A DNA stretch of 64,000 nt. It comes from Pyrenula massariospora (taxonomy: Eukaryota > Ascomycota > Eurotiomycetes > Pyrenulales > Pyrenulaceae). The stretch covers positions 2,337,230 through 2,401,229 of the forward strand of contig JAGFMI010000001.1 of the NCBI GenBank assembly GCA_021030905.1. The letters are read 5' to 3'. Made by a program: the position numbers and the translations under genes. Shown here in pieces: positions 24,601 to 36,418 of the stretch (within the stretch, counting starts at the first letter, position 1; every line of letters begins with the position of its first letter). The notes beneath the pieces are model-generated. The model was not told the DNA's origin. It saw only the letters and a list, made by a program, of their open reading frames with translations, and did not search any database.

Positions 24601-27600
24601 TAATTTACGCTGTTAAATTGAATTATTTCATGCTCGAGCAGGGCTCAGTAGACCTTGTGGCCGATCCCACCTTTGTCGAAGCCCAAAGAAAGGATTCTAG
24701 TCAAAGGTAGAAGGAGATCGTGGACACTCTTTACGCTTTCCTCCGTCTTACACTTTCCCTGAGTCTGTCGTTGTCTGAGGTTTATCTGGAGTCTATTGAG
24801 CTGGCCGATGTACAGTGTTTCTTGTGACTTTGAAGCAACCAAGGTCTCTAATACTTGTTCATCGCCTGATTTCTATACAACAGCTTTTCATAGATTGGTA
24901 TTGTAGATTGTCAACGTCACCACTGTTCCCTCCTGAGTACTGGGATTTACTTCTCCTAGACCGTCCTTAATGTCTGTAACGAAAGAAACTTTGTGGGATT
25001 TGTGTCCACATTATGACATCTCTGACGCTTTTGCATCATTTATGTCCAGCGAAATTCCATTACTGGTTCGGGCTCTTGCGGAAATCGCCACGCACAAGCA
25101 CACGAGGCTAGGTGACAGAAATCGTGGCCGATCGAGACTGGCCTCCAGTTGGATATCAGAAGTCGCGGCCTATCTGACTGTAAGTATTGTAGTCCGCCTG
25201 GAACATATTGAATACATCACGATTTCTGATACCTAGCATCGATCGGCCACGATTTTTGTCACCTAGCCTCGATAAGCCTACATGCTCGGCTTCGGCTAGG
25301 CAACGCGAATCAATCCGTTCTTGATGAACTGCAGGCCCCAAAGTCGCAGCAAATATCACAGTCATGCTTCTTCTAGCAATGCGTCTTTGTCATTGTGAAA
25401 GGTCCCTTGATCTTAGTCCCAACATCAAATCGCCCTCCGAGATTGTTTCATTCAAGACCATGACGTACGCGCAGGCATGTTGATTGTGCTCACAGTCCTT
25501 CGTCTACTCCGTCTACGTCGGTCCATCTGTCTAGCGCCTGAATGTCCAGATACACCAAACCTCCATTGTGATCGCACGTCTCGTATCTCATTTCTGGAGC
25601 CTGAGGCAAAATCTCTCCGAGACAACATTCCGCTCAAACTCCACCCCGCAGCCTGACTCGTAGATTTAATAAGCAAACTACAAAATTTAGAAGGATCCAC
25701 TCCAGCGCATCCCTCGTAGTGTTTGATGATAGGCGGCCAATGTATGGACGGCGCTCCGAGGATCCAACGCAGCCCCCACCCACTTCACCAACTGTCCCTG
25801 ACGCTTGGAGAATGCAGCATAGCAAAGGATGGCTGCTAGAGCTACTCTAATATACGCAGCTTTGTGTAAGAGTGTATAGACATCATTATAGATGCTGATA
25901 GACATGGCTGTGTTGCGGTGTTACATAGTGAGCGGGGAGTGTCTAGGTTTATTCTCTTATTTACACTGCTCCGCCGATGACAATATCACAAGCGTTTACG
26001 ATGACTGAGCGTTGTTGGGTACACATGAAATGACATGTTGGCTTACGACTTCTAGCGATCGTTAGTTCAGTCTGTGGCATTTTGGTGGGACTGCGACGCT
26101 AGGGATTGGAGTGTGTTGACCTATTAGTAAAATGTCGACCGTTTCAGCGCAGCGATGAGTTCTGAGGAATCAATACATAGTCTTGCATGTATACAAATCG
26201 ATGAAGACTGTCGGGTGAAACCTGCTTTCTAACTCTGAAGTCGTAGAAGTCCTTACTGAGCGCCGCGCCAACGGTTTGGTGTTCGAGGATATGTCATGAC
26301 CAACCTGTCGTCTGACTAGAAGTGGATTTCACGATTGTTCGGTGCCACCCCAATAGCGCTGCGTGAGCGGAGCGCTACGAGCAATTTCTGTCATTGGAAC
26401 GTACGAGTACATGATCCTTCTCTTCAGTACTATGCAGCCCCGACAGGTACCTGGTGAAGTTTTTCGGTTCGTCCAACACCATATAAGCTTCATCTTGGGA
26501 CGCTGAAAACTTAAGCGTCTTGAGAATGGCTCGGGTTAATATCTGGGAGAGAGGACGGGCAATCCTTCTCATTTGTAGGCACGAGCCACTGAGATAGGTC
26601 CTTCCGGCATCTCATCCGCCGAGTCCGCTGGGTACTTTGAGTCGAGATGGTATATCGATGTGAGCATGCTGGTAAATGACGCCTCTGGCACTGCAAACTG
26701 ACAACTTTGGTACCGCATCGATGCGTAAGAACCTGCTATTGACACTGTTCAACCTGCGTAGTGCGGTGTTGTGGCCGCGGATTTGACACCTGACTTTGTG
26801 GCGGACTAGACCACTGAACTGAGAATGTGTGAGGTAGAATAGTATTCTGATAGAGGCTTGACCTAGATTTGGGCGAGATAGAAGCTCAGAGGTAGGTCAA
26901 ACTAAGAAAATGGGAGAGTTGAATGGAAGAGCAGGAACAATGGTTGGCTCACGAAGGTGATTTTGATGAGCAGTGCTTGTCATGCTTAGTAAGCGAGGCC
27001 AACAAGAAAATCATTTTGGGAGCATGTGCGAATGGCCAGCGTCATATTTGCTTGCGCTCTTTATTATGGCGACGTGGAGAAGACACTAAAAACATCTTCG
27101 GGTCGGAGTGGGTTGAAGCTTTCTGAACTTGGTTTGAGGGTTTTCCGGTGATCGCCGCTGAACCAGGGAGAGGTACTGGGGTAAGGCCACAATTCGAACA
27201 TATGCTTGGAGCAAGTCAGATTGAAGAATGACTATGAGGATGATTAAAGTTTGAACCGAGAATTATTTGTATTGGAGGCTAGCTATGAGCTGTCTATCAT
27301 GTTTTGACTGTAGCTCTCCGACTAACGCTTTAAAGCTAAGAGGGAAAGTAAGATACGAAGAGTCATGTTGGACCGAAATGACATGTAGCCCCGGGTTACT
27401 TGCATCGGCATGATTGTTACCTATGAGCCTCCGCCTCTGGCTATTCGCCTTCTCACAAGAAACCTTCATCTATTTTGGTGATTCCGAAACAAGAAAACCC
27501 CGAGCTTTCCTATGAAATTCGCGCTTTTCGTTGCATCTTTGGAGAACCGAGAGCTGATAGATCTAAAAACTTATCGATGGGAAAAATGGGAATCCAAAAG

Positions 27601-27727
27601 TCTCTTGATCCAGAGTCTTCGTGAGCTTTAGCCGTAACATGTTTTCGAAACGACGAGCCTGAAACTAGAAAATTATTTGAGGGCGATGATAGTGTGGTAG
27701 CTCGGACTCGAAGTTGAGGCTTGTGAA
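24601..27727. other. Gene-poor stretch with an inverted-repeat element
   Basis: About 3.1 kb in which I see no supported gene. The nested inverted repeat at 25103-25271 is listed separately. Short ORFs (25452-25905, 26375-26696, 26923-27126) lack recognisable motifs. Confidence 0.5.
25103..25271. mobile_element. MITE-like element with nested terminal inverted repeats
   Basis: The outer arms, 25103-25135 and 25239-25271, are 33-bp inverted copies differing at one base and beginning CGAGGCTAGGTGACA. Inside, a second pair (about 25151-25170 and 25211-25238, core TATCAGAARTCG) is related to the outer arms with mostly G/A and C/T differences. At 169 bp it is non-coding and MITE-sized. No clear target-site duplication was confirmed. 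Confidence 0.7.
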
Positions 27728-28864
27728 TCAGTGGCTACAGATGTTAGCACTTGATCGTGACCGTGGCCGCAGAGTACTCGAACCACCCGGGGCGATCGTC
27801 TCTGAATCACTTTCTTCCTCTGCGAGGATACCATGGGTACTAGGTCCATTTCCGCTGTCTTTGTTGCAATGTCTCCATGACGGTCCTTGACTAGGCAAAT
27901 ACTGCTCAAATGCAGGACCTGACAGTTGCATCTTCGGCACATAGAGCTCTAATCGGTACCAAGGCGAGTCTTTCATTTTCACGAGATGTGCAACTTGATC
28001 GCCGCACTCCTCAAGTGTGACATTTCCCGGTCCATGTATCTTGAAATCGTACGTGTTCATTGTGGCACAGTATGAGAAGATGTTGTACGGCAGATTGGGC
28101 ACGTGAAGAACGTCCTGAAGAACCATGTCATAGCTGTTCGAGCTCCTCTCGGATTTGGCCGCGTATGATTCCCAGGAGAGTCGTCGAAGCCTAACCTTGA
28201 TATCTCCTTTACCAACCACTTTTGCGGTGCTGACGACCTTCCCGTCTTTATCGAGACACTCCACGTGGCCCTTCTCGGGTATGTAGCTATTAAACATGTC
28301 TCGACTGTGTGACATATGCCATTTGGTGCCGTGCCAAGGGGAAGTTGTCAGAATCCAATCATGGCAATGCTGTCCATGTGAAGATTGTTTGGGAGTCTTC
28401 GAAGTCGGCTCTTCGGCTTGCGAATCTTCGTGCAGTAGGGCTTCTGCCTCCTTGCGCTTCGATGCTGCTACGTGGACAGCGTGCCTTCCAAATTCTGCGT
28501 GAAGTCTGTCCCAAACCGCTTTTGCCGTGGACAGATTATTCACTAGCTTTCGCGGGCCCTCGGCGCAAGAATAGAGAAGGCAACCCCTACAGCATGCATC
28601 TCGAGCTTCCCAGGCAGATGTTCCGTCTTTGTAGGGCTGTCCAAGGTAACCATACGACTCCTCCCGAGGCCAGTTAGGACATTCGGTAAAGGTCGTAAAC
28701 AGTTCATAGAGTTTGCCAGGGACAATTAGCATCCAATCCTGCATCTTTACGGACCAATACCAGTAGTCATCCGGACCAGTAAGTCTGATGTCGGAAGGAG
28801 GAACAAAGCGTTGAAAGTCGACAGGTATAGACTTCGTCTTCCCAATTAACGAACCCAAATCCAT
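27728..28864 (-). CDS. Copia Gag/protease-derived protein, type A (copy 1)
   Basis: Single-exon, 378 aa from ATG 28864 (the longer frame opens at a TTG). Residues about 18-128 look like a Ty1/copia Gag N-terminal domain: DIRLTGPDDYWYWSVKM, WMLIVPGKLYELF, SAWEARDACCRG, NLSTAKAVWDRLHAEF. Residues about 168-268 match the beta-barrel/protease-like part of copia polyproteins (DWIL, FNSYIPEKGHVECLDKDGK, AKVVGKGDIKV, MVLQDVLHVPNLPYNIFSY). The protease DSGA/DTG motif is replaced by TTSPW, so it is probably not a protease. The tail is acidic, then RPRSRS. No CCHC knuckle, integrase, RT or LTRs. Probably a captured host gene; the function is unknown. Confidence 0.75.
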   Translation of the reverse strand: MDLGSLIGKTKSIPVDFQRFVPPSDIRLTGPDDYWYWSVKMQDWMLIVPGKLYELFTTFTECPNWPREESYGYLGQPYKDGTSAWEARDACCRGCLLYSCAEGPRKLVNNLSTAKAVWDRLHAEFGRHAVHVAASKRKEAEALLHEDSQAEEPTSKTPKQSSHGQHCHDWILTTSPWHGTKWHMSHSRDMFNSYIPEKGHVECLDKDGKVVSTAKVVGKGDIKVRLRRLSWESYAAKSERSSNSYDMVLQDVLHVPNLPYNIFSYCATMNTYDFKIHGPGNVTLEECGDQVAHLVKMKDSPWYRLELYVPKMQLSGPAFEQYLPSQGPSWRHCNKDSGNGPSTHGILAEEESDSETIAPGGSSTLRPRSRSSANICSH

Positions 28865-29697
28865 GGCCCAGAGGTCGATGTCGTGATTGTAAGCGATTCC
28901 TACTTGTGCCTGTGACAACGTCTTCTGAAGATGTGGTTGCCAACTCGGTGACCAGCAAAAGATCCACATCCACGTGCTTGCCAGTGGAATTGATGCTTCA
29001 AAAGTGGACAGAGCCAAACAGACCTATTCCCTCTCGTACGCTCTTCGGAGATGCTTGTGATTGAAGTGGGAGAAGTGGGAGAAGTGGCCAAACATTCGGT
29101 TCTTTTGCAGACGCAACTAGGTACAACAAATGACCTTGCACGCCGTGGCAAATCTACCAAGGGACTGTAAGAATGAGAAAAGAAGAGAAGAGAAGGAAAC
29201 GTAGGCAAACAGTCGACGCGGTCACAGAAAAAATTTGCGAGTTGGCGTTTCAACTGGTGAGGTCTGAACGGGGTTTCTTCGGCATCGTTACGCGACTACC
29301 CGTTTCGATCACATCATCACAGAAAACTGCTCATGTCGAAATTGGATGGGCAATTTATTGATGGAGCGCGAAGAGTCGTGAGATCTTCGATGACAATCGG
29401 TGCTGTAGTTCTTCTTTGCTTGGCTCCATTCAGAGAAGTCGAGATGGAATGCAGCAAAGAGCACGCAGAGAACCCGATTTGAATAGTTGCGGCTGTCAAA
29501 TTTTTGCTTCTTCTAAGTCAATCAAATCACCTATCGATCTCACGACTGTCAATTATTTGCTCAACATATCATTTTCACCGTCATCACAATGCTCTGCTTC
29601 AGTGCTAGACGCGTCAGACTTTTGGACGGCCAGAGAAGAAGAATGGGCAATGGCTTTCGATCCATTATTACTACTGTCGTTGATAGGGTTTGGAACT
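28865..29697. other. Spacer between type A copy 1 and type B copy 1
   Basis: Upstream region of the type A gene and 3' end of type B. It contains a short GAAGTGGGA-type tandem repeat near 29065-29090. No LTR or other gene recognised. Confidence 0.5.
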
Positions 29698-30999
29698 CTA
29701 CGGGATATGACCGGAGTTTTGCTTGGCATGCGTGGTATTTTTGGTGTTTCCTCTTTCGTTTGTGACTGCGACAGAAGACGGTAGGCTTTGCTCAGTATTT
29801 CTCGGTGGTAGTGTCGCATCAATGACTGGATCATTTGGCTCGGAATGTTTGGGACGTTTTCGCTTAGAAGACTTCCGAGGTGCTGTCTCAGTGAGTCTAG
29901 GAGAATTTGCTGGACAAGATTTTGGGTTCCTTGGATTGGCAGCTGCTGCCTGTGCTCGCCGAGAAGGTACAACAACACTTGAACTGGAAGATGCCGGATG
30001 CTTAGGCTCAGCCGCGGACGAGCGCTTTGGGGCTCTGCGTAGCCAAGCTTGATGGACTTTTATCCCATGAGTTCTTTTAAGCCAAGTATGGATTTGGTCA
30101 ATAGCTCTATTAAACTCTCGCAAATCTTGTGGTGTTATTATGCGAAGGTCGTCCTCGTTCTGATGAGTTTTGAGTTCCAAAGCGAAGAAAAACAACCAAT
30201 ATAAATAGATATTGTTGGTGATAGGGTCTGCTGAAGAAGTACCCAGGTTAAGGCTTTTGGAAAGTTCTTCGGCCTCATCTGTTGGAATGCAGCGAATAAA
30301 TTCTGAGTTTTTCGAATCCCAGCTCATGAACTTGCTTTCCCAATATTCAGTACATACATTGCAACCACATATCCAATCAGCTACACGTTCAGATAGGCTC
30401 TGGCTTGCCGATTCGATCAATGATTTCAGACCGTTGTCCTCATGGAGTCGCCACCTTGGTCCAAGAAATCCCGTACATTTGTCGAGTTTCTCCTTTGATA
30501 GCGGACCATCAAAGAAACTTCCAGCAGGATCAATATTCATAGAACACAGCTGGGAGGTTTCCACAGGAGTATTGCTGGCAAGGTTTTGTAGATTGTATTG
30601 AGCACACGCTGTGATGGAGAAGACATTGCAGGTTGCCTGCGGCACATGGAGCACGTTATACAATATCACCACATTGTCCGATTGTTCTTGCGCATCTTCT
30701 GTAGTGTTGCTTCGAGAATATGGCCGGGCTTTTATATGCACTGTCCCTATGCCGACAACTTTTGCTTTGCGTAATCGATCAAATTGATCATCCAACTCTT
30801 CCACATGGGATGGACATGCTCGATATTCAGTGTAGGCGCTTCGAAAACGTGCGATGTGGAATTGCGTGCGTTGTGAAACGATCCATTTGCGGGTGTCATC
30901 CCTTGCTTGCTCAAGCTGGTTTTGCTCCACGGTATGTCCTTCAGCGGGAGCATCATGATTTGCTACACGCTCCACTGACTCGGAGCGAACTCTCTTCAT
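29698..30999 (-). CDS. Copia protease-fold-derived protein, type B (copy 1)
   Basis: Single exon, 433 aa from ATG 30999. It lacks the Gag-like domain and starts with the beta-barrel/protease-like region: WIVSQRTQFHIARFRSAYTE, AKVVGIGTVHIKARP, VVILYNVLHVPQATCNVFS. The Asp motif is absent (SQRTQF). It continues into a part not seen in type A: GPRWRLHED, ADWICGCNVCTEYWESKF (C-x-C-x2-C), IRCIP, YLYWLFFFALELKTHQN and WLKRTHGIKVHQAWLRRAP. The tail is basic with SKRKRPKH, a likely nuclear signal. Its counterpart is the type B copy at 35079-36418. The function is unknown. Confidence 0.7.
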   Translation of the reverse strand: MKRVRSESVERVANHDAPAEGHTVEQNQLEQARDDTRKWIVSQRTQFHIARFRSAYTEYRACPSHVEELDDQFDRLRKAKVVGIGTVHIKARPYSRSNTTEDAQEQSDNVVILYNVLHVPQATCNVFSITACAQYNLQNLASNTPVETSQLCSMNIDPAGSFFDGPLSKEKLDKCTGFLGPRWRLHEDNGLKSLIESASQSLSERVADWICGCNVCTEYWESKFMSWDSKNSEFIRCIPTDEAEELSKSLNLGTSSADPITNNIYLYWLFFFALELKTHQNEDDLRIITPQDLREFNRAIDQIHTWLKRTHGIKVHQAWLRRAPKRSSAAEPKHPASSSSSVVVPSRRAQAAAANPRNPKSCPANSPRLTETAPRKSSKRKRPKHSEPNDPVIDATLPPRNTEQSLPSSVAVTNERGNTKNTTHAKQNSGHIP

Positions 31000-32868
31000 T
31001 CTCAAGCTATGGAAGACGCAAGCAGAAGTGAACTGGTTCGTCTGTACGCAGGAAAGTCGATGCTTCAAATGGGCGATGCAATTGGCGGGTAAACCTAGTG
31101 TGTTGTCTCATTGAAACCTCAATAGAGAAGATAGGTGCATGGGGGAAACTTGAGACAATGAGCTGAAATGATCATACGGTCTTGAACAGACAACATATAC
31201 CGCGTTGTTTTGAAGGGTCCGAAATAGTGTTTAGACGCGGTGAGAGACTAAAAGTTAGTAGATTCGGCACGGTCCACCGATCGACGGTATTTAAGGCGAC
31301 GCTGGGTGTCGGAAGTCGTGGCGCATCTAAAGGTTAGCATTCGCGCTCGCCCGTTGTATACTAGATACGCCACGACTTCTGACCACCCAGCCTTGAGGGG
31401 ATTCCGCCCGAAATTGCACAGTGGCGTCCACAGATCTTGCGTATCGTGATATCGACTGCACAGTTTGCTTGAAATACCCTGCATTTGCATTATTGTTCGA
31501 CGGCCGACTTGGCGCTGCAGATGGAATGCGGTTCTACGATCAGCTCCTGTCCCGTTATAAGCTCGGCAATTGAAGCTTCGCAGATCTCTCGCGTCCCAGA
31601 CTTTGTAGACTTGCCATGTGCGATTACTTGAAAGCAACTTGATCTCTGTTCTCAGGGCGATTTGACCGCGCCGGCTTCAACATTAGTCGTAAGGAAGGTA
31701 ATCGTTTCTAAGGCTAGGTAAGGCTGGGGTTCAACCCAATCTGCCTTCGACGTCGGCAAAAGCGTAGCCACAGCTCGTGCATGAAGCAGCGCGCGGGTTG
31801 AGAGTGTTATTTCTGCAAGCATTTCCATTTCTTCCTAGACGGCAAGACGGCCCTGATACACTGTCATTGAGCTTATGAAGTACGATAAGACGGCTAGGCG
31901 GAGCAGCATTGTATGCGATCATTGGGTTCACAACACCCCACATACAAAGTATGGACCAGCCTTGTATCGTCATGGACCCATCTTCGTAATCAGCGCAGCT
32001 CGTGAGATGAAGGGAAGGAGACGAATGCAGGTACAATTTAAATACCTGAGGCGTCGCTGGCCGCTGTGGTAAAACAGTTCCAAGCTGACTTCTCGAAGGT
32101 CGAAGCAACCTGGCGCTTTCGTAAATTTGCTGAAAGATTTAAGAGGAGAGGAGAAGTGTATCGTGACGGGTGGAGAAGTCGAGGTGTCCTTAGTACATTG
32201 TACCTGTGGCAACGAAATATTAGAAGCTCCTGAGGTAATGAGGCCACGCCACTGTCTCTTAGAGGTGCCGGCTGTGCTACGAAAGGACGCATCAGCAATT
32301 GGCTGTCCGATCCGGCCTAAGCCTGCAGGCTGGGGAAAGCTAGAGCGACCTCGTGGCAGACTAGACTCCTGGTAGGGACATCGCACAGAATTGCAGGTAA
32401 GCTGAGCCATCGAAACTTGCAAGTGATTGATATTTAGACTTCAAATCAAGAGTTACTAACTTTGCAGTCAACTTCACCAAGCTTAGGAGCTCACGCGTTG
32501 GCATCTTCGCGACTAAAAGATCAACGTAGAAATGAAAAACCCTCACCAGCACGAATTATCAAACAGTATTAGACATTACTTGAAGACCGCCATCAATAAA
32601 AACACCCATCCTCTAGTCCTTCAAAAACCACACACTTCCAAATGAAAACTCAAAACCGTCTAGATCAACAATTGCCCTTGCATCAAATGATTTCTCATCC
32701 GTCTCCGGCGAGATGTCTGGTAGAAGCCAGAGCTCAACGAGAAGGCATCTGAGCCATAATCTTCTTACATTCCTTGAGTATCGGGTCACACAGTCTGAAG
32801 TCTTCATTGTTGCACGGTGAAGATATGAGGGCTACTGTGCCTGCAACTGTCAAAGGGGCGGAGAGGGC
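31000..32868. other. Spacer between the two A-B pairs
   Basis: Contains the short inverted-repeat element at 31293-31398 and several ORFs of 60-150 aa with no recognised domain. No LTR-like repeats flank the neighbouring genes. Confidence 0.5.
31293..31398. mobile_element. Short MITE-like inverted repeat
   Basis: The left arm GGTGTCGGAAGTCGTGGCG and the right arm, read inverted as GGTCAGAAGTCGTGGCG, enclose about 35 bp. The arms resemble those of the 25.1 kb element with mostly transition differences, so both may belong to one family. Confidence 0.6.
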
Positions 32869-34410
32869 TCAACATTCATCTTCGTCGGTGTCTGAGGAGT
32901 CGCTATTATTCTCCCCATGCTCTTCGTCGCTGTTGCTATCGACATCGCTGTCGTCATCATCCTCTTCTGCATCATCGCTATCGGTGTCCTCGCTGTCACT
33001 AACATCGCCACCTGAGCTACCATTTTCATCGAGGGCAATAGAACGCACTGGCTCAACTGGACGCTTTGTACTAGTGAGGTTGCTTGGATGCTCCCTGTCC
33101 ACGAGGCCGGAAGAACTAGGACCCAATGAATTCGCCACATACTGCTGAGTGCTGGTCTGCTGAGCAGGCTGTTGTGTGCTAGGGCGTTGAGCACTGGTTT
33201 CTTCGAGACGGCTTTGTGCGTTGGACTGTTCAGCAGGCCGATTGCTTTCAGCACCTTGGATAGACCGGTGAGCGGCAGTCTCCTTGACAAGGCAGTCGTT
33301 GCTCGTTGGTTCAGCCAAGCGCTCATTGCCTGTGCGCTCCTCAGTGCGCTCCGCCTTGCCCTTTGTTGAGTCGACCTTTTCCATTCCGATGGGGGTTTGT
33401 GTGGCACCGCCTTCATCATCGCTGTCGTCATCGCCCGTGTCGCAAAGTCTCCACATAGGTCCTTGAAGGGGCATGTCTCCTTCCGACGCCAATTCTGCGC
33501 AAGGTGAGTCCATCTTACAGATATCGAGTCGATGCCATGGTAACGTGTCGATCTTTTGAAACTGTGCCACTTGGGAACCGTTTTGCTCAAGCGTGATGAC
33601 TCCTGGGCCGTGCAGCGTGTAACTCTCGGGCTCCCTTTGCAGGGCATGGTATGAGAAAACATTGTAAGGCAGCTCCGGGACGTGAAGCGTCTCGCTCAAG
33701 ACAATGTCGAATAGTCGTCTCTTGTTCTCAGACTTGGAGGAGTTCACACCTGCGTCAAATCGTCTGACTTTGAGGTGTATCTTGCCTTTACCGACGACCT
33801 TCGCCCAGCCAATGACGTTTCCATCGCTGTCACAATTTTCTACACAGCCATCAAATGGTACATACTCCTCAAATACATCTTGATTGCGAGCAATATGATA
33901 TTCGGTACCGTTCCACATGTAGGTCGAAAGAATCCAGTCACGGCATCGCCGAGAATCCTGCCTGAGCTTCTTAGTCGACGGCTCAGAATTGTGATCCTCA
34001 TCGCTGGACAGGGTATCTGAGCGTTTGCGTTTCAGGCCATTTGAGCATGGATATTCGGTTTGGAAGCTTGATTTGAGCTTTTCCCAGAATTGCCGTGCCG
34101 TACTCAAATTTTGGGTCAGAGACTTTGCGAATGGTGAACAAGTATACAGGATAGCTCCCCTGCAAGCTTCATCTCGTGCAGTCCACGACGCCATGGCTCT
34201 TTCGAACTCTTGCATAATAGATGGGTCAGATCCTTTGGCTGGGCATTCTGGAGGGGTGGCATCTTCCCCGACCATATCATGGAGCCTTCCAGGGACGATC
34301 AGCATCCAGCCCATGATCTTAGTGGTCCAAAACTCATAGTCATTGGGACCACAAAGTTTGATGTCAGGAGGGGGGATAGCACGGTGGAAACGAGCGCTTA
34401 TTCGTGACAT
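32869..34410 (-). CDS. Copia Gag/protease-derived protein, type A (copy 2)
   Basis: Single exon, 513 aa from ATG 34410. It aligns with copy 1 throughout: PPPDIKLCGPNDYEFWTTK, WMLIVPGRLHDM, SWTARDEACRGAILYTC, NLSTARQFWEKL, then DWILSTYMWNGTEYHIARNQ, FEEYVPFDGCVENCDSDG, AKVVGKGKIHLKVRR, IVLSETLHVPELPYNVFSY and LHGPGVITLEQNGSQVAQF. The catalytic DTG is again missing (ILSTYMW). A bipartite basic stretch (LKRKRSD...TKKLRQ) separates the two domains. The C-terminal about 170 residues are unique: degenerate Gln/Ser/Thr repeats (TQQPAQQTSTQQ), then a strongly acidic Asp/Ser tail ending DTDEDEC. It is probably nuclear; the function is unknown. Confidence 0.75.
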   Translation of the reverse strand: MSRISARFHRAIPPPDIKLCGPNDYEFWTTKIMGWMLIVPGRLHDMVGEDATPPECPAKGSDPSIMQEFERAMASWTARDEACRGAILYTCSPFAKSLTQNLSTARQFWEKLKSSFQTEYPCSNGLKRKRSDTLSSDEDHNSEPSTKKLRQDSRRCRDWILSTYMWNGTEYHIARNQDVFEEYVPFDGCVENCDSDGNVIGWAKVVGKGKIHLKVRRFDAGVNSSKSENKRRLFDIVLSETLHVPELPYNVFSYHALQREPESYTLHGPGVITLEQNGSQVAQFQKIDTLPWHRLDICKMDSPCAELASEGDMPLQGPMWRLCDTGDDDSDDEGGATQTPIGMEKVDSTKGKAERTEERTGNERLAEPTSNDCLVKETAAHRSIQGAESNRPAEQSNAQSRLEETSAQRPSTQQPAQQTSTQQYVANSLGPSSSGLVDREHPSNLTSTKRPVEPVRSIALDENGSSGGDVSDSEDTDSDDAEEDDDDSDVDSNSDEEHGENNSDSSDTDEDEC

Positions 34411-35078
34411 ATTCGAAGAAGGAATCAGCCTCCGGGTCGCAATCAAGTTTTGAGGGTAAGTTCAGAGGGTTGAGTTCGGTTGATGTAGACGCGATTCCAG
34501 GCGGTGACTAGGTCCACGGGACGCGTAGGATGCTGCAAAAAATCGAGAATCTCAACTAAGGTGGGAAGCCTTTGTTGAGCGAGGTGTTTTAGGTAGATAC
34601 GCGACGCGTCGGGCAACCGTATGTCTAATTGATTGAACACGTATGCTGGCTAATTATTTACCACTGGTAAATAAGAGTGTGCAAAGAAGTGTGATCTTCT
34701 CGACGGGACAAAGAAGAATTTTTCGAGATAAAAAGTCTAGGTGAAGTTTGCTTAACCCTGACCTCTGGGCACAGAGTTTCTTCAGCACCGTGCACAGGGG
34801 TCTTTTGAATCCTTCAATTATTATTAGAATTGGTAATCTCTTGACAGAAGCCGCCAACTCGATAAGCCGAAGAAATCGAACCTTGCTAAATTGTCCACTT
34901 TGTGTTTTGTTGCTAAGCAAATCTACCATTCTCAAACGCAACAGATCTAAAAAACTGAGAGACTTGAGAAATTATGTCTATTTTTCATGGAAGCCCGAAA
35001 TTGGTCTTTTCTTCAAGCCAAACTGAGCCCGAAAGGTCTTGTTTACTTTTGCCTCATCTAATACCGCGAGCGAATCAT
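34411..35078. other. Spacer between type A copy 2 and type B copy 2
   Basis: About 670 bp, AT-rich around 34650-35000. No gene or LTR recognised. Confidence 0.5.
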
Positions 35079-36418
35079 CTACTCACTGCTCAGGTCTAGG
35101 AGACCGTGAAAATCATGTTCATCCTCATCGTCCGACTCGTCAATATTGATGATCCCTTCATTAGGAGAAGGAAGGCCAGGAGGAGTAAGTGTTGGCCGAT
35201 CCTTCGTATGCGGACTTGAGCCGGACACGGCAGGAAATACCTCAGGTCGAGATGAGAGTCCTTTCCAAGAATGACAGATATCTTGGCTCATGGTGTGATC
35301 CGAGATTGACCAAGAAGACCGTAGATCGGTTTCTGACATGTCACGATCATCTGACTTCGAAGGTGAAGGGGCTATTTGTCCCGAATGCCAGATACACGCT
35401 GGCTGGGAAGGCGTTTGCTTTGAAGAAATGGACGCAATTGGAGCCAGGCGAAGCCAAGTTGTCTGAGGTTGGAGACCATGGCTATCGCTGATCCATTCTT
35501 CCAGCTGTTCAACAGTTCTGTGGTATGACTCCCACTCGTGTTCTGATCTCAGCCTGCGGTAAAGCTCATTCCTACCAAACCGCTGGATGTCCAATGCAAA
35601 GCGAAAGAGCCAGTACAAAAATTGGTTATTCGTCGTACGCCGGGTATTTAGATCCAGATATCTCGCAAAATCCTCAGCGTCGCCGTACGGGATGCAGCGA
35701 ATACGATGAGAGCTGTACATGTTCCAGACCACGAATCTCTTCTCCAAGTAATCAATGCAGGTTTTGCAGTCACAAACATAGTCTTTCATGCGTTCTGTTA
35801 TACCCTTCTTCGTTGGTGACACCAAGGCGTCCAAGCCTTCCTCCTGAAGATGTATCCACCTGGCCCCGAATGCGTCTAAGCGATCCTCGAAGCCTATCCC
35901 CAGAGAGGTAGTTTTAACAATTGGCCATTTTGCAGAGTATCTTCCATCACGATCTGAACACGTCGAACAATCTCCTGTGAGCTCTGACCGGTAATCTCCT
36001 GAAGCTCGTATGGAGCATCCTGATGGCCGGAAAAGACGTTCTTGGTGGACTGCGGCACGTGCAGCACATTGTGCAATGCTACCTCGAAAAGGTGCAGGCG
36101 CCCGCTCTCATCTCCGGTATCCATCCGCCTTGCTCGGATCTTCATGTGGACCGTACCAATGCCTACCACCTTGACCTTTTTGAGCTGGTCGTGTCGCGAG
36201 TCAAGCTCTTCAATATGTGACGGAGGTATCCGATACTCAGTGAAAGTGTATCGGTTGGAGGCCATGTGAAAATGGGTGCGTTTCGAATAAATCCACATTA
36301 GAGGAAAGTTGGGAAGGTCTAGTGATGAGTCTGGCTGTCTTAACTTGCTGTCTTGTCCGCCGGTTGCAGTCTTGTCGTCCGCTTGATACTCGTGAGTTTC
36401 GAAGCAGGTTCTCTCCAT
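35079..36418 (-). pseudogene. Copia protease-fold-derived protein, type B (copy 2), frame-shifted or spliced
   Basis: The N-terminal frame from ATG 36418 (MERTCFETHEY) covers the beta-barrel region: WIYSKRTHFHMASNRYTFTE, KVKVVGIGTVHMKIRARRM and VALHNVLHVPQSTKNVFS, ending at a stop at 35894. The C-terminal part continues in another frame, open from about 36060 to 35079: LDAFGARWIHLQEEGLDAL, YVCDCKTCIDYLEKRF (C-x-C-x2-C), IRCIP and FLYWLFRFALDIQRFGRNEL. Both parts align with type B copy 1, so they belong together. The break could be a one-base indel, an unrecognised intron or programmed frameshifting. The C-terminus has IINIDESDDEDEHD, which resembles a SUMO-interacting motif. Whether it is functional is unclear. 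Confidence 0.6.

Follow-up and report, generated by a model that had tools for sequence, protein, structure and literature searches.

A probable host gene family of Ty1/copia Gag-protease ancestry in Pyrenula massariospora

Results

Four minus-strand genes share a copia-type beta-barrel

The window analysed here, a stretch of 64,000 nucleotides from the fungus Pyrenula massariospora (contig JAGFMI010000001.1, here C11, positions 2337230-2401229; genome of 37.8 Mb in 33 contigs), contains four minus-strand loci at 27728-36418, each with a beta-barrel of the copia Pol type (Pol_BBD, PF22936). In transcription order the array reads B2-A2-B1-A1, with B upstream of A in each unit. Judged from their sequences, these genes very likely represent a small, old host gene family whose source was the Gag and protease portion of a Ty1/copia retrotransposon. 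Domestication holds at least for A and extends to B1 in the part that it shares with B2, whereas B2 and a further copy, B3, are excluded. For the function of the family, we tentatively favor a nuclear binding scaffold that derives from Gag-Pro and is catalytically dead, an explanation that as a whole falls a little short of an even chance.

A sequence-only reading of the window, made by a model, had assigned a shared copia-type barrel to all four genes, and Pol_BBD was indeed matched at every one of the loci, with E values of 8.3e-7 to 1.8e-4 in the genome search and 3.8e-8 to 3.3e-5 for whole proteins. The PF22936 profile gave five matches across the 37.8 Mb genome; four were the array loci and the fifth was a gene on contig C10. 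A sixth barrel, that of B3 (26.1 bits), was found via protein searches on C11, ~35 kb left of the window. Against the curated cut-off of 27 bits, which is the same for Pol_BBD and Retrotran_gag_2, A1 (34.5 bits) and B2 scored higher in both the genome and the protein searches. A2 reached 27.2 bits in the genome search and 24.8 bits, under the cut-off, as a protein. B1 scored 24.6-24.7 bits as a protein, also under the cut-off, 26.7 bits in the genome search, and 29.8 bits with its neighbors.

Gene starts were placed at the first ATG fitting the homology. The loci described earlier were retained. For three of them, the likely ATG gives a shorter gene: 27728-28864 for A1, 29698-30999 for B1, and 32869-34410 for A2. 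Codon usage was scored after training on 3735 codons from eight neighboring open reading frames (ORFs). The score was above zero in the frame read for A1, A2, B1, and both B2 parts; for B1, it was also +0.02 in one other frame. The GC content of the A and B genes was 47-52%, with no AT shift.

The A genes stay open after an old duplication

The distance between the two units was 5141 bases from A1 to A2 and 5381 bases from B1 to B2. A1 and A2 had 40% identity over 323 codons, and B1 and B2 had 41% and 34% identity over 168 and 157 codons, so that the two pairs have diverged to a similar extent, which is what a duplicated B-A unit would lead one to expect. The sequences thus support that one two-gene unit was duplicated in tandem and that its copies then diverged to ~40% identity, in line with the ~5 kb unit and strong divergence proposed before. 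All five DNA matches between the two units in the self-comparison of the window lay inside genes. The Gag part was present in A1 and A2 only, and the cysteine cluster in B only. In a tree of seven rows, support was modest, at 64/86 for A and 87/91 for B; 28 and 19 of 500 label shuffles were as low.

In the core of the A1/A2 alignment, the proportions of synonymous (pS) and nonsynonymous (pN) differences were 0.72 and 0.41, and 66% of the 44 fourfold sites in residues common to both proteins differed. The silent sites are near saturation. The suggested comparison of the ratio of nonsynonymous to synonymous rates (dN/dS) between copies could therefore be carried as far as pS against pN, but saturation barred an exact ratio. 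When neutral substitution of A2 was simulated at 0.05, 0.1, 0.2, and 0.3 per site, the frame stayed open in 54, 5, 0, and 0 of 1000 runs. Because A1 and A2 are both open despite near-saturated silent divergence, we read them as selected host genes, and the retention claimed for them held.

The protein search with A2 found one relative, the 578-amino-acid database protein P0003, in which 253 of 459 aligned positions (55%) were identical to A2. In the alignment, A2 was 56% identical to P0003 versus 37% to A1, and the tree branch lengths agreed. Since P0003 stands closer to A2 than A1 does, the sequences suggest that A1 and A2 arose by duplication before the host of the array and that of P0003 diverged. 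No relative was found for A2 among viral contigs or for the A alignment among prokaryote genome contigs. With tblastn, residues 15-55 of A2 also gave a weak match at 32018-31893 (E 0.11).

No other part of an element was found at the locus

As previously claimed for reverse transcriptase, integrase, and long terminal repeats (LTRs), the repeat searches and the RVT_2 and rve searches found none at the array. Direct repeats of at least 25 nt in 22-42 kb were limited to one 26-nt pair at 73%, with nothing LTR-like, a search that strongly diverged LTRs could escape; comparison of the window with itself likewise gave no LTR-like direct repeat. The stretches 25000-29000 and 31000-32868 were single-copy in the genome except for two short dispersed repeats. 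Across the genome, RVT_2 had two matches (C17 and C18), both with stops, rve had none at E <= 0.001, gag_pre-integrs had one sub-threshold match, and no intact copia element was found.

The A proteins join a partial Gag to the barrel

A1 (27728-28864, minus strand, as are all array features below) encodes 378 amino acids in an open frame, with a Gag-like helical part, a barrel at the copia protease position (28064-28330; E 1.3e-6), and a short tail. A2 (32869-34410; 513 amino acids) is also open and consists of a Gag-like helical part, a basic linker, a barrel (33634-33912; E 1.3e-4), and a long acidic tail (32872-33030). The linker of A2, KRKR...KKLR (33961-34032), resembles that of P0003 and may act as a nuclear localization signal. 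The last 60 residues contain 27 D/E in A2, 22 in P0003, and 7 in A1.

The Gag-like N-terminus described for type A was matched in both genes, but weakly and in part, over profile positions 7-87 of 172 at most. The match lies at 28469-28627 in A1 (profile 28-80 of 172; E 9.9e-4, below the cut-off) and at 34021-34293 in A2 (profile 7-87). In the genome search, Retrotran_gag_2 scored 22.9 bits for A1 and 27.5 bits for A2. As proteins, A1, A2, and P0003 scored 21.6, 25.5, and 28.7 bits over profile positions 28-80, 8-87, and 27-91, respectively; all three matched at the same place, one of them over the cut-off. When the genome Gag search was run at E up to 0.1, one of 14 control genomes also matched, below the cut-off. 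A third sub-threshold match in P. massariospora (C20:188722; 19.8 bits) was set aside as a low-complexity ORF.

In A2, the Gag match ends at residue 130 and the first W of the barrel is residue 159, with residues 131-158 in between. At most ~130 Gag-like residues thus precede the barrel linker, and nothing in the A-type proteins matched the profile's second half. For comparison, the CA (capsid) of Drosophila copia alone occupies residues 1-186 and has an N-terminal and a C-terminal domain (available excerpt of PMC11835246). By position, the Gag piece kept in A looks N-terminal; the mapping of the Ty1 Retrotran_gag_2 domain to the C-terminal domain of CA (CA-CTD), as given in the accessible part of PMC8458377, points the other way. 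Judged by sequence, much of the capsid protein appears to lack a counterpart in A. A CCHC knuckle (C-x2-C-x4-H-x4-C) was found in none of the six proteins. Its absence alone proves little, because the fission yeast Tf1/sushi Gags are also described without a zinc knuckle (excerpt of PMC10085805). With at most ~130 Gag-like residues against 186, and a match confined to profile positions 7-91 of 172 even when P0003 is included, the capsid-like complexes proposed by the sequence-only reading are disfavored, and the A proteins probably form no closed capsid.

The barrels lack the catalytic motif of a protease

In copia proteases, we take the catalytic motif to be D-S/T-G, located shortly after the barrel start. 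In the alignment and the motif check, it was absent after the W-I start of A1, A2, P0003, B1, B2, and B3. The residues at this position were W-I-L-T-T in A1, W-I-L-S-T in A2 and P0003, W-I-V-S-Q in B1, and W-I-Y-S-K in B2 and B3. DTG or DSG strings occurred off-site, in the tails of A2 (DTG, residue 324) and A1 (DSG, residue 336) and at residue 100 of B2 (DTG), within the barrel in a variable stretch not common to B1 or B3. From these alignments, we concluded that none of the barrels would be an active retropepsin of the usual type, and we are highly confident that the predicted proteins work without proteolysis. The term "protease fold" used earlier is therefore appropriate for these barrels, but "protease" is not. 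Profile searches against the PDB brought up no relevant hit, the lowest E values being 0.065 for A, at the acidic tail, and 0.046 for B, and NCBIfam gave one chance-level match only with the four proteins.

The B genes carry a cysteine cluster and are partly broken

B1 (29698-30999) encodes 433 amino acids in an open frame, with a barrel (30598-30885; E 1.8e-4) followed by a cysteine cluster and a C-terminal part. The cluster, C-x-C-x2-C-x20-C at 30289-30369, has the same spacing as that found by motif search in B2 (35694-35774). The C-x-C-x2-C region noted for type B was thus recovered in B1 and B2, and it is present in B3 as well; from its sequence, it could bind zinc. An origin of the cluster from a gag-pre-integrase or H2C2 domain was considered but not adopted, as there was only a 10.7-bit Integrase_H2C2 match in B2 and none of PF13976 there at E up to 0.1.

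Three of the four frames had been called intact. This was upheld for A1 and A2, but in B1 it is certain only for the part common to B2, because ~48 codons of coding-like sequence follow the B1 stop in another frame, to 29556. This stretch (29556-29700; codon score 0.23) may be a continuation of B1 with an acidic end. B2 (35079-36418) has the layout of B1, with its barrel at 36020-36295 (E 8.3e-7), and its reading frame is split into 36418-35897 and 35894-35079. Near 35900 the coding signal shifts frame, and it is present on either side, so the change is either recent or an assembly or sequencing error. An intron was considered and rejected: among introns of 40-129 nt with a donor after 36118, 20 GT-AG pairs keep the frame open, none of them with a canonical donor or branch site. 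B3 (L021:5439-6623) is broken by a 50-bp unit repeated 2.2 times at 100% identity and then by a second frame change. With B2 frame-changed and B3 broken, the claimed retention extends among the B genes to the shared part of B1.

A and B were not found together outside the array

Co-occurrence of A and B elsewhere, which the sequence-only reading had asked for, was not found. No A gene lay in the 20 kb surrounding B3, where tblastn with A1, A2, and P0003 matched only the barrel of B3 itself, and none lay within the 10 kb surrounding the C10 gene. The protein searches that yielded P0003 for A gave no relative for B1, nor did the alignment of B1 with both B2 pieces give one among the best 7996 word-sharing candidates. 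As the protein collection appears thin for fungi, the absence of B relatives says little.

The C10 gene (C10:380233; L022:4580-5363) resembles the array genes in its copia-type barrel without D-S/T-G (W-V-W-S-N in the apparent first exon), but differs in an apparent intron within the barrel and in its C-terminal part. Searched against the genome, its protein matched, besides itself, only the B1 barrel. It is presumably a common ascomycete protein type.

Repeats and decayed elements

A MITE-like element (miniature inverted-repeat transposable element) of ~170 bp lies at window 25103-25271, with 33-nt terminal inverted repeats that are 97% complementary; it has 22 further matches across the genome. 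Between B1 and A2, at 31297-31394, there is a ~97-bp dispersed palindromic repeat that recurs at a minimum of 39 other genome places (best 40 of 56 candidates); the DNA fold of 31290-31405 has a z-score of -5.1. RVT_1 gave 24 matches genome-wide, 23 of them with in-frame stops, mostly TAA. Of the two RVT_2 relic loci, one has 14% GC and the other 50%. The stops in RVT_1 and the 14% GC relic form a pattern resembling repeat-induced point mutation.

Discussion

Once a catalytic motif, an RNA knuckle, and a complete capsid are missing, binding surfaces are what remain of the ancestral Gag-Pro, and for this reason we favor a scaffold. In A, the Gag-derived helices would mediate self-association, the basic linker would direct nuclear entry, and the dead retropepsin-like barrel would serve as a dimerizing or peptide-binding platform, while the acidic tail of A2 may contact basic chromatin proteins. 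B would place the same type of barrel beside a cysteine-cluster module. Basic linkers and acidic tails are common in nuclear proteins, and we regard a nuclear location as evenly balanced. The A and B barrels could also pair; the grounds for this are that retropepsins act as dimers and that the genes are arranged in A/B order, and such pairing is rather unlikely.

Several points weigh against the scaffold and the family history behind it. A1 has a weak basic linker and lacks the acidic tail. The A and B genes are known here from sequence, and P0003 is known as a database protein alone. Tree support for A is modest (64/86), three of the four inner branches are open, and the saturated dS puts an exact dN/dS for A1/A2 out of reach. 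AlphaFold2, applied to A and B separately as had been suggested, returned models too poor to use, with a predicted local distance difference test score (pLDDT) of 34.0 for A2 (with A1 and P0003) and 31.6 for B1 (with the two B2 pieces), which leaves the fold, the dimer, and the tail roles without structural support. Furthermore, B2 and B3 are broken and no A was found near B3, so that B may not be needed.

The alternative that survives best, though unlikely, is that A, with or without B, restricts transposons by interfering, as a shortened Gag, with the assembly of copia particles, in the manner of Fv1, p22/p18, or Drt2. A comparable domesticated gag gene exists in yeast (excerpt of PMC10951436), and CA-CTD, the N-terminal CA domain (CA-NTD), or POL pieces have been raised as possible exapted restriction factors (accessible part of PMC8458377). 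Few copia traces were found in this genome, as would be expected of restriction; however, no intact target was found (two RVT_2 relics with stops, no rve), and mutation-based silencing, in view of the RVT_1 stops and the 14% GC relic, could also explain the missing copia. In addition, Drt2 contains CA-CTD, whereas the Gag match in the array leaves the later half of the profile uncovered, the domain boundary being uncertain.

It is also quite unlikely that only A is functional and that its partner B, having become redundant, is on the way to being lost. The state of the frames fits this, as both A genes are open while, among three B copies, one is open through the shared part, B2 is frame-changed, and B3 is broken; so do the searches, with one relative of A and none of B. 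However, the coding signal on both sides of the B2 change makes that change recent or a sequencing error, and the protein collection, which appears thin for fungi and was scored with the B alignment for its best 7996 word-sharing candidates, weakens the second argument.

The reverse proposal is an obligate partnership of A and B in which the dead barrels heterodimerize in a nuclear complex, with Gag helices and the acidic tail coming from A and a zinc-binding cysteine cluster from B; it appears distinctly improbable. To our knowledge, such a two-subunit co-opted complex would be unlike any known domesticated gag gene. We are more doubtful that A-type proteins still build capsid-like particles, as do Arc and PEG10. 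The copia Gag match occurs in all three A-type proteins, once over the cut-off, and a missing zinc knuckle is no bar to particles, as Tf1/sushi Gags lack one (excerpt of PMC10085805); yet the match stays within profile positions 7-91 of 172, and ~130 residues precede the linker compared with 186 in copia CA (excerpt of PMC11835246). Finally, although the two frames of B2 and the broken B3 would suit an array that is nothing but decaying retrotransposon debris, this is very improbable given A1, A2, and the shared B1 part open at near-saturated silent divergence, no LTR, reverse transcriptase, or integrase found at the locus, no AT shift, and a 55%-identical relative of A2 elsewhere.

An old, duplicated family of Gag plus dead protease in a fungus with few copia traces would suggest that a protease barrel, and not a capsid part alone, is reusable as a binding module, and it would offer a tractable test organism.

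Animals and budding yeast supply the best-known domesticated Gag genes. Arc, PEG10, and PNMA2 belong to the Ty3 lineage, form particles, and have both CA domains; the array genes are likewise host genes from an LTR-element gag, but in A the two CA domains were not both matched. Compared with Ty1/copia Gag-Pol, the array has the same order of a Gag-like part followed by a barrel, with significant Pol_BBD matches, but it differs in its few copies and in that no LTR, integrase, reverse transcriptase, zinc knuckle, or catalytic motif was found. DRT2 of Saccharomyces is a domesticated Ty1' gag with CA-CTD that restricts Ty1', and is thus also a fungal host gene from a Ty1-type gag, whereas the array has a Gag piece and a dead barrel (excerpt of PMC10951436). 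The Ty1 p22/p18 proteins, p18m of which equals CA-CTD, are likewise truncated Gag products, but are encoded within an active element (accessible part of PMC8458377). In the excerpts available from the open-licence literature on fungal genes of the Pol_BBD, retropepsin, or domesticated copia gag types, this family was nowhere described. Overall, the array belongs with the already known domesticated Gag/Pro genes.

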